A stretch of DNA of 41,394 nt from Halobacteriales archaeon SW_10_66_29. GTDB lineage: Archaea > Halobacteriota > Halobacteria > Halobacteriales > Haloarculaceae. The translations under genes and the position numbers were made by a program. The notes under the pieces were generated by a model. That model was given only the letters and a program-made list of their open reading frames with translations. It was not told the origin of the DNA and did no database searches. Location: contig PXSF01000100.1 of assembly GCA_003022845.1 (NCBI GenBank), positions 1-41,394 on the forward strand, read 5' to 3'. Positions 11,792 through 25,724 of this stretch are shown piece after piece; position 1 is the stretch's first letter; every line of letters starts with the position of its first letter.

Positions 11792-11994
11792 AGTTGATCG
11801 TCACTGTGTGGATACGCGGGAGATTTACTTAAATCCACAGCGGCGTTGCTCGCGCCGAACTCCACCCAGGGCGTGAGTGTGCCGTCCGCACCGTCACTGC
11901 CTCCACACACCGCGCTCGGCTACTCGTCGAGCCCGAGCACCGCTGGACTCGTCCGGGAATCCTCGACGTGGTAGTCAACCCGACGAACATAGTG

Positions 11995-12105
11995 ATAGTG
12001 ATTGTTGTGACTCGTTACCGCCGGGTAGTCCTCAGACGCCAGTTTCGGGCCGTGAAACCGCCGCTATTGCGACATGGTGGCGAAAATAATCATAACAATC
12101 ACTAT
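11995..12105 (+). repeat. Palindrome-ended intergenic element, copy A (111 bp)
   Basis: ATAGTGATTGTTGTGA (11995-12010) ... TCATAACAATCACTAT (12090-12105); 105/111 identical by hand to the reverse complement of 24737-24847. Confidence 0.9.
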
Positions 12106-12173
12106 GAGACGAAGCGACCAGCTACCGCATGTCCTCCGGTGCGTTAAAACGCTCGGGGGGCGAGACTGGAACT

Positions 12174-13119
12174 ATGCTTCTCGAGGGGACCATCCTCAGG
12201 GGGCGCTCGTTTCAGCCGATCGAGGGCCGGATCGTCGTCGAGGACGGCCGGATCGAAGCGATCGAGGAGAGCGATGCACGCAGTGACGACATCGTTCTGC
12301 CGGCGTTTGTCAACGCCCACACCCACGTCGGCGATTCGATCGCGAAGGAGGCGGGCGAGGGGTTGACCCTCGAGGAACTCGTCGCGCCGCCGGACGGGCT
12401 CAAACACCGGCTGCTCGCGGAGGCCGATCGGTCGGAACTGGTCGACGCGATGGCCGAGACCCTCTCGTTCATGGAAGCTTCGCGGTGTCGACGTCGAATC
12501 GGTCGTCCTCGGCAGGGAATCGATCGAGGCGATGGAACGCAGCGACGGGTTCGGCGCGAGCGGCGCAAACGACGGCGAGTTCTCGCGGGAGCGTAACGCG
12601 ACCGCCCGGGAGGGGAAGCTGTTCGGCATCCACGCCGGCGAGGTCGACAGCTCCGACATCAATCCCGCGATGGATCTGGACCCGGACTTCCTCGTGCACA
12701 TGGTCCACGCCGAGGACCTCCACCTCGAACGGGTGGCAGACAGCGGGACTCCAGTGGTGGTCTGCCCGCGGTCGAACGCGGTCACGGACGTTGGACTGCC
12801 GCCGGTGAGCGACATGCTGGACGCGACGACGGTCGCGCTCGGGACGGACAACGTGATGCTCAACAGCCCCTCGATGTTCCGCGAGATGGCGTTCACCGCG
12901 AAGCTGACCGACGTCTCGACGGTCGACGTGCTCCGGATGGCGACGATCAACGGCGCGGAAATCGCCGGCCTGAACTGCGGGCTGATCGAGGAAGGCCGCG
13001 ACGCACGGCTCGTCGTCCTCGACGGAACCTCGCCGAACCTCTCCGGCGCGAAAGATCCCTGCCGGGCGGTCGTCCGGCGGGCCGGCGTCGACGACATCAA
13101 GGACGTAATCAGGCCCTGA
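12174..13119 (+). CDS. Amidohydrolase (cytosine deaminase/chlorohydrolase-like), interrupted near 12470-12482
   Basis: MLLEGTILRGRSFQPIEGRIVVEDGRIEAIEES, NAHTHVGDSIAKE; second frame VDVESVVLGRESIEAMERSDGFG...LFGIHAGEVD...VVVCPRSNAVTDVG...LGTDNVMLNSPSMFREM. Confidence 0.85.
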
Positions 13120-19628: not shown

Positions 19629-19676
19629 TACTGCCGGACGTGATTCCGTTACCACCCGGATAGCACTCAGCATCTG

Positions 19677-19758
19677 ATAGTGATTATTGTGAGTCGTTCC
19701 GGTATCGACCGCGCGACTGCGTGCGGTCGACCCGGTAAACAGTCACAATAATCACTAT
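19677..19758. repeat. Palindrome-ended element, copy C (82 bp)
   Basis: Perfect 16-bp inverted ends ATAGTGATTATTGTGA / TCACAATAATCACTAT with central hairpin cgaccgc...gcggtcg. Confidence 0.85.
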
Positions 19759-19782
19759 GAGACAACCGAAAACCCCAGTCTG

Positions 19783-19892
19783 ATACTGGTGGCTGTAATT
19801 CTTTTACTCGCCAGTCTCTGCTATCTGCGGATACAGACCCGTTCCGCCTGGATTCTCAATTCGAGTTTTCGCGTACTTACAGCCACCAGTAT
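19783..19892. repeat. Palindrome-ended element E (110 bp)
   Basis: Perfect 16-bp inverted ends ATACTGGTGGCTGTAA (19783-19798) / TTACAGCCACCAGTAT (19877-19892). Confidence 0.85.
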
Positions 19893-19944
19893 GAGCATCA
19901 CTCGGAGTAACATAGTCACGTCCGGCAGTATGACGGCGCCCCGA

Positions 19945-20409
19945 TCAGGAGAAGCGGCCCGTTTCTCCGCCGCAGGTTTCACAGATTGTCACCAGCGCAT
20001 CCTCGCCGTCAGCCCGTTCAATGCGGGTCGGCTGCCGTCCACCGCAGTCCGCACACTCCCGGGTCAGTTCGGTGTCGCTGTCCGGGGGCGCGCCCAGCGC
20101 GAGCGCACGCAGTCGCTCGTCGCCCTCGTTGCGGCCGAGTTGCCACTCGCCGGGTTCGAAGCGGATAGCCCCGTCGGCGGAGACGGTAACGTCGCCGTCC
20201 TCCGTCTCGAACGTCGCTGTCCCATCCAGGACGTAGAACACCTCCTCCTGGTCCGGGTGGCGGTGGTAGCCGAACCCGAACTGCTCGCCGGGTTCGAGTT
20301 CGAAGTAGTTGATCGCGACGTTCTCGGCTCCCAGCACCTTTGCGAGTGGGCGCCGTTCCGACGCCGGGCTTATCCAGGACTCGACGTCGGCGATCGAGAC
20401 GCGTTTCAT
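19945..20409 (-). CDS. Cupin-domain protein with C-terminal CxxC zinc-finger-like motifs
   Basis: ELEPGEQFGFGYHRHPDQEEVFYVLDGTATFETEDGDVTV and RECADCGG...TICETCGGE. Confidence 0.85.
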   Translation of the reverse strand: MKRVSIADVESWISPASERRPLAKVLGAENVAINYFELEPGEQFGFGYHRHPDQEEVFYVLDGTATFETEDGDVTVSADGAIRFEPGEWQLGRNEGDERLRALALGAPPDSDTELTRECADCGGRQPTRIERADGEDALVTICETCGGETGRFS

Positions 20410-20547
20410 GCTCGCGTGTTTTGCGGCGCAGTACAAACAGGTTGGGGTCGCCGCAGCGACTGGCTGGCCCGCAGAGATGCGCGCGGCCGGGAGGGACTGT
20501 CGGGACGAGGGGGGTGGGGACCGGGAAGGCGGACTGCCGCGATGGGG

Positions 20548-20712
20548 TCACTCCGCGCGGTCGACGTCGAGCTGGTCGTCGAGGTCCTCGATCCACTCCG
20601 AGTCGGCGAGTTCCTCCATCTGCTCGCGGAAGTGTGCTTCACAGACGCCGACCCGCACGCCGTCTTTCTCGACCACGACGTCGGCACTGCCATCGCAGTA
20701 GTGACATTCCAT
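20548..20712 (-). CDS. Small CxxC protein (54 aa)
   Basis: MECHYCDGSADVVVEKDGVRVGVCEAHFREQMEELADSEWIEDLDDQLDVDRAE; only part of the longer ORF looks protein-like. Confidence 0.7.
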   Translation of the reverse strand: MECHYCDGSADVVVEKDGVRVGVCEAHFREQMEELADSEWIEDLDDQLDVDRAE

Positions 20713-20777
20713 ACTACACCTTACAGACCGTGTAAGTTGAACCCTGCGGAGGAGCGGGCCTCTGCCGGGACCGACGT

Positions 20778-21557
20778 TTATATACCGGCGGAGCGCCGGA
20801 ACTGCTCGAACGCCTCCCCGTCCAGCCCCGCCAGCCCGAGCGTCTCGTCGTGCGCGTCGCTCCCGCCGGTCATGAGTAGGTCGTGCTCGCGGGCGAGCCT
20901 GGCTGCGGGCTCGACATCCACCTCGCGGCCGTAGGGATACGCAACCTCGACTGCGTCCAGTTCTCTCGTCCACTCCAGTGCTGTCTCCGGGTGCGGGTAC
21001 CGGAAGGGGTGCGCGAGCCCGACGACGTCACAGGCCCCCGACAGGATCCGGGCTCCGTCCGCGAATGGGGGGATGTCCCGTGACACGTAACACGGATCGC
21101 CGTCGCCGATCAGGCCGTCGAAGGCATCGTCGTACCCGACGTCGGCTTCGCTGTCCGCGATGGCACGGGCGATGTGGGGCCGGCCGACGCCCGGTTCGAA
21201 CGGCACCGCCAGGTCGACGCCGAGCCTGTCCTCCACGCACTCGACGATGGCCCGCGCACGCTCCACGCGGTCGGCCTGGAGATGGTCGACCAGCCCCTGG
21301 AGGTCGTCGGTGCGCTCGACGCCGTAGCCCAGCAGGTCGATCCGCTGGACCGGCGTCTCGACCCGGAGCTCGATGCCGTGGATCACAGTGATGCCGTCGA
21401 GGGTACTGACGCCGTCCGCCAGGTCCGGGTGGAGTCTGTCGTGATCCGTCACCGCGACGGCCGCCAGATCCGCGCGCTCCGCTGCCGGCGCCAGCGTCCC
21501 CAGCGTGAGCGTGCCGTCGGAGTTCGTCGTGTGGACGTGCAGGTCAGCGACAGTCAT
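20778..21557 (-). CDS. PHP-domain metallophosphoesterase
   Basis: MTVADLHVHTTNSDGTLTLGTLAPAAERADLAAVAVTDHD; GGSDAHDETLGLAG. Confidence 0.92.
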   Translation of the reverse strand: MTVADLHVHTTNSDGTLTLGTLAPAAERADLAAVAVTDHDRLHPDLADGVSTLDGITVIHGIELRVETPVQRIDLLGYGVERTDDLQGLVDHLQADRVERARAIVECVEDRLGVDLAVPFEPGVGRPHIARAIADSEADVGYDDAFDGLIGDGDPCYVSRDIPPFADGARILSGACDVVGLAHPFRYPHPETALEWTRELDAVEVAYPYGREVDVEPAARLAREHDLLMTGGSDAHDETLGLAGLDGEAFEQFRRSAGI

Positions 21558-24710: not shown

Positions 24711-24736
24711 GCCCGACGGTTGGATTCCACGGACTA

Positions 24737-24847
24737 ATAGTGATTGTTGTGATTATTTTCGGCACCATGTCGCAATAGCGGCGATTTCACGGCCCGAAAC
24801 TGGCGTCTGAAGAATACCCGGCGGTAAAGAGTCACAACAATCACTAT
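24737..24847 (-). repeat. Palindrome-ended intergenic element, copy B (111 bp, inverted relative to copy A)
   Basis: Perfect 16-bp inverted ends ATAGTGATTGTTGTGA / TCACAACAATCACTAT; 6 mismatches to copy A over 111 bp. Confidence 0.9.
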
Positions 24848-25017
24848 AACGCCCTCCGGTCCGACCGGGGCTCCCGCGCCGCCGGTACTGCGCCGCTGGG
24901 AGCGGTGGTGGCGGTGCTGCGAGAGGTGGTCTTGATAACTAGAGGATAACCGACCCGCCAGGTCCGGATAGCTAGCCACGGATTGTACAGTGGAGAGAGC
25001 AGACGACTATAGTAACA

Positions 25018-25410
25018 ATGGCGACGAAGCTACCCGCCCGCGATCCCCAGCGCAGGGATAGACGCACCGATCACGTCGGCAACGGGGAGGCCGACCACCA
25101 GGCGGCCTCCGGCGAGGAGTTGCTCGAACTGCTCGGCGACGAGTACACGCGTCGCGTCCTCCAGGCAGTCGTCTCGGAACCGAAAAGTGGCCGTGAGGTC
25201 GTCGAGGAAGCGTCCGTGTCGAAGGCGACCGCGTACCGCCGACTGGAGACCCTCCAGGAAGCGGGGCTCGTGGAGTCGAGGACCGTGTTCGACCCGGACG
25301 GTCACCACCACGAGCAGTTCCGGGCGATCCTCGACGGCGTGACAGTCGAACTGCGAGACGAGGGCGTCACGACGGCGATCCACACCGACGCGTCCCCCGC
25401 TGACGACTGA
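25018..25410 (+). CDS. Winged-helix (ArsR-like) transcriptional regulator
   Basis: LLELLGDEYTRRVLQAVVSEPKSGREVVEEASVSKATAYRRLETLQEAGLVESRTVFDPDGHH. Confidence 0.88.
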   Translation: MATKLPARDPQRRDRRTDHVGNGEADHQAASGEELLELLGDEYTRRVLQAVVSEPKSGREVVEEASVSKATAYRRLETLQEAGLVESRTVFDPDGHHHEQFRAILDGVTVELRDEGVTTAIHTDASPADD

Positions 25411-25456
25411 TAGTGATTGTTGTGATTGTTTTCGGCACTACATCGCACTAACGGCG
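25410..25456 (-). repeat. Truncated element copy D, fused to the stop codon of the upstream regulator
   Basis: 41/47 matches by hand to the 24737 end of copy B, then similarity ends; no right terminus found downstream. Confidence 0.7.
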
Positions 25457-25483
25457 GCCCAACTCCCGTCGAACCGTCCCTCG

Positions 25484-25502
25484 AAACGGCGCGCCGTTTT
25501 TT
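25484..25502 (+). terminator. Perfect palindrome plus T-tract, terminator-like
   Basis: AAACGGCGCGCCGTTT (25484-25499) followed by TTT. Confidence 0.5.
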
Positions 25503-25724
25503 GCGACCGTCGAGAAACGAAGGTTCAGAACTTTTTACCCCTCACCGAATCAGTCACGAACGTTAGCGAGGTCCGGACACCCGGTACTGCTCTTCGGCGA
25601 GCAGCGTGGGGATGAGGGGAGTCGGCCGACTGGTCCCCCGGAGAGGTGAACGCTTCGCGGTCCCCAGGCGCCCCCGACCCCCGAGCACCCCCCACTGGAA
25701 ACGGAGCAGCCCAGAACCAACGAC

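Follow-up and report, generated by a model that had tools for sequence, protein, structure and literature searches.

Small Inverted-Repeat Elements of Two Lengths in Halobacteria Are Probably MITEs Mobilized by IS630-Family Transposases

Introduction

The window analyzed here, a 41,394-nucleotide stretch of DNA from Halobacteriales archaeon SW_10_66_29, contains two nearly identical short noncoding sequences in opposite orientation, and the question they raise is what kind of repeat they represent and how such a repeat is moved. A sequence-only reading of the window had described them as a pair of 111-bp sequences with palindromic ends, copy A (11995-12105) and copy B (24737-24847). The comparison of sequences presented here indicates that they very probably belong to a class-wide group of Halobacteria MITEs of 77 to 80 or 107 to 109 bp, to which the Haloquadratum walsbyi small mobile repeats also belong and for which an IS630-family (DDE_3) transposase acting in trans is the most likely mobilizer.

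Results and Discussion

Boundaries, ends, and target duplication of copies A and B

Copy A and the reverse complement of copy B are each 111 bp long and differ at six positions (20, 34, 37, 64, 86, and 99), and their 16-bp inverted ends match perfectly in B and at all but one position in A. Both copies are AT-richer than their surroundings (GC content of 0.495 in A and 0.468 in B, compared with 0.67 in the flanks), and each is intergenic between divergently transcribed genes: copy A separates a minus-strand gene with a DnaJ domain from a plus-strand ORF, and copy B has on one side a flavin amine-oxidoreductase gene on the minus strand, with its ATG 27 bp from the copy, and on the other side a plus-strand HTH gene. 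A scan of the neighboring ORFs identified a transposase domain in none of them. The length, the six differences, the inverted ends, the AT-richness, the divergent neighbors, and the lack of a nearby transposase had been recognized in the sequence-only reading, which was correct overall and conservative. The amidohydrolase-like gene adjoining copy A (12129-13119) occupies two frames, 12129-12596 and then a shifted frame from position ∼12532, which suggests a frameshift or an assembly error.

The 111-bp extent first assigned to the repeat is real as a repeated sequence, but the element proper is 109 bp, TAGTGATT...AATCACTA, and lies within a 3-bp target duplication, TNA, that is outside the element. 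Aligned copies with unrelated flanks read CTSATAGTG...CACTATSAG, where the middle base S is equal on both sides of one copy and varies among copies; TNA is therefore the target duplication, and the element runs from TAGTG to CACTA. Copy A (TAGTGATTGTTGTGA...TCATAACAATCACTA) occupies positions 11996 to 12104 on the plus strand between TGA duplications at 11993-11995 and 12105-12107. Copy B, with perfect terminal repeats, occupies positions 24738 to 24846 on the minus strand between TAA duplications at 24735-24737 and 24847-24849. All three duplication bases are identical in 175 of the 194 copies read, with a middle base of C/C in 92, G/G in 86, A/A in 3, and T/T in 1 and discordant in 12. The extended target is a palindrome-like G-W-C-TNA-G-W-C, and GWC is found ahead of the duplication in 48 of 175 copies, compared with 2.1% of the TSA sites in the window.

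Each element ends in terminal inverted repeats of approximately 15 bp (15 to 16 bp), followed by inner motifs that are specific to the end, TTTACC at positions 19 to 24 on one side and TTATTTTCG on the other. Left and right ends agree at 91 to 99% per position over positions 1 to 14, and at the variable positions 3, 9, 10, and 13 the left base equals the right in 91 to 93% of copies, compared with 48 to 80% when partners are shuffled. Because the copies are related and not independent, this agreement is evidence of concerted ends and does not count events.

Copy number and distribution

A BLAST search with copy A of the host assembly, a Halovenus MAG of 2.28 Mb in 170 contigs that is 64% complete, returned 42 matches, the majority with a length of exactly 111 bp; the similarity far exceeds chance (best other copy, E = 2e-47). 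The end pattern alone occurs in the same assembly at 69 forward and 63 reverse sites (132 ends), with 0 sites for the reversed control pattern. Many further copies are thus present in the host and in relatives, and A and B have unrelated flanks; both results go against an isolated pair or a segmental duplication, the two outcomes that the earlier reading had named as fatal to it. Terminal inverted repeats, a 3-bp duplication, a multicopy state, and the lack of a transposase gene are all characteristics of a MITE.

Within the genus Halovenus, the 111-bp sequence was matched in 9 of 18 genomes, and copy numbers are high in congeners, including the complete genome of Halovenus salina, where the copies are only 74 to 76% identical yet still 111 bp long. 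In the family, 24 of 118 genomes contain the end pattern, and across the class Halobacteria 29 of 394 sampled genomes do, representing 16 of 86 genera and at least 6 families. Nearly all readable copies in this class survey are 78 to 80 or 107 to 109 bp long; the few exceptions (103, 174, and 189 to 190 bp) include some with clear internal insertions. Haloquadratum walsbyi C23, a member of the class sample recognized by a 100% match to its plasmid PL100, contains a 108-bp TAGTGATTA element in 40 or more copies, and the H. walsbyi plasmid PL47 contains no such element. Viral contigs contain no exact match to the end pattern.

Nested copies and empty sites

At one locus (L035), a copy lies inside another copy, and the host copy closes gap-free once the inserted element and one TCA are removed. 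The same rule applies to copies inside TACTGCCGGACGTGA elements at two further loci (L018 and L098; 94 to 97% ungapped), and a copy on an H. salina plasmid has split a sequence that H. walsbyi carries intact at four places (297/297 ungapped columns). The related genome G008 also has copy B at the orthologous position (L041; C40:75447-75557), with the same right flank and 99% identity; this insertion, shared by the window (L006) and G008, is therefore older than the split of the two genomes. The intergenic region at the copy A locus is not conserved in the relatives used for the empty-site comparison.

The window itself contains a nest at 19629-19930 that the sequence-only reading had missed, comprising three small elements from three terminal-repeat families. 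The outer element belongs to the TACTGCCGGACGTGA family, has a TGA duplication, and is interrupted by two nested insertions, an 80-bp element of the TAGTGATTATTGTGA family on the minus strand (19678-19757) and a 108-bp element of the TACTGGTGGCTGTA family (19784-19891), each with its own TGA duplication. Subtraction of both insertions with one duplication each restores a net length of 108 bp for the outer element [302-(80+3)-(108+3)=108]. A mechanically called ORF (19789-20934) overlaps part of this nest and has no Pfam match, and it is probably not a gene where the two overlap. A decayed third copy of the 109-bp element is located at 25411-25520 on the minus strand, with approximately 48 bp of one end still alignable and the remainder lost. 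The target-duplication TGA that flanks it (25408-25410) is at the same time the stop codon of the HTH ORF at 25018-25410, which indicates that the decayed copy inserted at the end of that gene.

Other short repeats were encountered together with the elements. One is a short mobile sequence that has GTGTTCAGATAAG or TGTTCAGA at its ends and is inserted within 109-bp elements at L132:1150-1530 and L094. A palindromic repeat of approximately 100 bp (ATCTCGACACAACTCGGGACTGTCAGGGTCGATACTCGTGGATATC), which is possibly a PATE-like element, served as the target for elements at L082:6186-6299, L085:7599-7716, and L091:7870-7972.

Two length classes with divergent interiors

A de novo scan of 2.17 Mb, which asked only for the same TNA on either side and for agreement at 12 or more of the 14 terminal bases and took the reversed sequence as its control, identified 220 elements, compared with 12 in the control. 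These elements fall into approximately 10 terminal-repeat families, nearly all of which start with TAGTG, TACTG, or TACGG, and their lengths are almost exclusively 107 to 109 or 77 to 80 bp, with lengths of 218 to 222 bp representing one element within another. Among the 109-bp copies, interior identity has a median of 62% and a minimum of 26%. The interiors have diverged at a constant 109 bp, and thus the length has been kept and the sequence has not. Fresh indels are present in decayed copies.

A fixed length and palindromic ends could also be expected of a repeat that is selected for its fold, as a structured RNA or regulatory sequence, and has spread secondarily, and the sequence-only reading had left the choice open between such a repeat and a MITE-like element, citing internal hairpins kept in both copies. 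In a set of 139 distinct 109-bp elements (effective number, ∼15), these hairpins are not conserved: pairing extends to just 23 to 55% of the weighted sequences for TACC-GCCG-GGTA and to 35 to 83%, mostly through sequence identity, for GTTTC-N7-GAAAC. In the 109-bp class, pairing throughout with covariation is restricted to the terminal repeats. The 80-bp class is closer to what an RNA would predict, as its members form near-complete hairpins, in which the inner arms show a few compensatory changes and two mismatches lie immediately inside the terminal repeat, one (C.C) constant and the other (G.G) nearly so; the location of copies near gene starts also favors a regulatory role. Against this stand the lack of conservation of the internal stems of the 109-bp class between subfamilies, an Rfam search that returned no match, and the fact that transposition fully accounts for the ends, target duplication, and nesting. 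We therefore give almost no credence to the structured-RNA explanation, and of the two original suggestions it is the MITE-like one that stands, given the duplications, nesting, empty sites, abundance of copies, and an IS family whose ends match.

IS630-family elements as the candidate source of transposase

H. salina encodes an IS630-family element of 1,122 bp, in which the HTH and DDE_3 domains are divided between two ORFs at an A7 run, and its transposase is matched by both the DDE_3 and the IS630 models. The element occupies four distinct sites with target duplications TTA, TGA, TCA, and TGA, each after GWC (GAC or GTC), which precedes only 2.1% of the TSA sites in the window. In Halorubrum ezzemoulense, Natribaculum, Natrarchaeobaculum, and Halocatena, related IS630 elements (1.02 to 1.13 kb) show TAGTG ends, a TTTAC close to position 19, and duplication of TCA. 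The Haloarcula sinaiiensis and Halorubrum salinarum IS630s show TACT..GG ends and duplication of TGA and TTA, like the TACTG small elements; outside H. salina, these boundaries were each drawn from one copy. The Natribaculum IS630 end TAGTGATTAGTTCGAATCTTTACCG matches the end of an H. walsbyi element at 23 of 25 positions, a value reached by 0 of 300 shuffles in which the positions beyond 9 were shuffled. Several other IS630 ends score above most shuffles; the exceptions are the H. salina and Halocatena IS630s at their left ends. The H. salina IS630 has only approximately the first 9 bp and TTT.C in common with the elements of the same genome. Taken together, the common end, the inner box, the 3-bp TNA duplication, and the target make IS630 the best-supported mobilizer.

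No DDE_3 transposase was identified in the host MAG or in its nearest relatives, G008 and G011 (assemblies 64 to 88% complete), and their elements accordingly either are stranded or depend on a transposase that the assemblies lack. A full-length transposon with the 15-bp ends was not found in H. salina, in H. walsbyi (2.0 of 3.15 Mb), or at the other loci examined. Apparent end pairs spaced 1.4 to 2.8 kb apart are two small elements flanking host genes. At L410 (1353-2545), an IS630 whose ends resembled both ends of an 80-bp element was also rejected as a parent, since its four copies in that genome show that an unrelated 1,113-bp IS630 (ends GAGTGGTC..GACCACTC) has split an 80-bp element.

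IS5 elements of the IS1031 type typically generate a 3-bp TNA duplication, and mobilization by another TNA-duplicating DDE transposase, such as the IS1031 group of IS5, would explain this feature directly; DDE_Tnp_1 transposases are in fact present in some of the genomes that bear the elements. However, the IS5-type transposases were either without matching ends or absent: PF13586 (DDE_Tnp_1_2) is missing from 10 element-bearing genomes, and the DDE_Tnp_1 loci that were read lack these ends and, where their own ends are clear, show duplications of 4 to 9 bp. IS630 elements with both matching ends and a matching duplication do exist, and we consider an IS5-type mobilizer very unlikely.

Under mobilization by IS630, a transposase supplied in trans would bind the terminal repeat and the inner box and pair the two ends of the short DNA. 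Excision and insertion at a GWC-TNA-GWC-like site with a 3-bp stagger, giving rise to the 3-bp TNA duplication, would follow, and this step is shown by the duplications and empty sites. Only certain end spacings would pair efficiently, as suggested by the conservation of length across end families. A broader form of this hypothesis, to which we assign slightly less than an even chance, is that the elements constitute a class-wide IS630-driven MITE superfamily conserved in length and not in sequence, in which transposition would need one of two fixed lengths (e.g., through a bent or folded end-pairing complex) and the ends would change together, tracking the IS630 transposases.

Relation to small mobile repeats and other known elements

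The sequence-only reading had assigned the repeats to no named haloarchaeal family, which holds for Halovenus; the same superfamily is almost certainly the small mobile repeat (SMR) class of Haloquadratum (PMC3119063). The SMRs were described from H. walsbyi in 2011 as SMR-A of approximately 110 bp (HqIRS42, HqIRS43, and HqIRS55), present in up to 54 copies, and SMR-B (HqIRS41), which includes an 80-bp one, with no target duplication, ends unlike those of any transposon, and an enigmatic mechanism (PMC3119063). They resemble the elements studied here in their lengths of approximately 110 and 80 bp, prominent inverted ends, lack of a gene, high copy number, and insertion into mobile elements, and they differ, as published, from elements that have a 3-bp TNA duplication and ends resembling the IS630 ends of other haloarchaea. 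A search of the PMC open literature for the end sequences found no relevant paper.

In a de novo scan of C23 (2.0 Mb), elements drawn as ATAG...CTAT or ATAC...GTAT cluster at 109 to 110 and 79 to 80 bp, and when they are redrawn one base shorter at each end, clean TCA/TCA or TGA/TGA duplications appear. The 108-bp TAGTGATTA element is thus 110 bp when drawn as ATAG..CTAT, and the 78-bp TACTG elements are 80 bp when drawn as ATAC..GTAT. From the agreement with the described lengths, inverted ends, and copy number, we infer that the small elements of C23 are the published SMRs, and we regard the reported lack of a target duplication as an artifact of how the boundaries were drawn.

A host role, such as the disabling of IS605-type elements, has been proposed for the SMR-A of Haloquadratum on the basis of how often it inserts into PATE and IS605-type palindromes (PMC3119063), and the elements studied here likewise nest in palindromic repeats. 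However, the palindrome-like target GWC-TNA-GWC suffices for insertion into palindromes, and many copies, including A and B, are located in ordinary intergenic DNA, so that such a role also appears to us very unlikely.

The haloarchaeal IS630s (1.0 to 1.1 kb; PF13358 and NF033545) share with the small elements the TAGTGATTA or TACTG ends, TTTACC at positions 19 to 24, and the TNA duplication, and the H. salina IS630 also shares the GWC|TNA target; they differ in carrying a transposase, and beyond the first ∼25 bp no sequence in common with the small elements was found. IS630/Tc1/mariner elements usually duplicate a 2-bp TA, whereas the duplication here is a 3-bp TNA. Other prokaryotic MITEs are also noncoding, with inverted ends, a target duplication, and high copy number, and what sets the present elements apart is the two strict lengths over approximately 10 terminal-repeat families and the spread through a whole archaeal class.

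Collectively, these results would turn the Haloquadratum repeats, previously called enigmatic, into ordinary and testable biology, as IS630-type MITEs with a 3-bp TNA duplication. They document the spread of the elements through the Halobacteria and provide exact element boundaries that can be used in genome annotation. The two rigid lengths common to unrelated terminal-repeat families would also allow a direct and inexpensive test of end-spacing control in a Tc1/mariner-type transposase.
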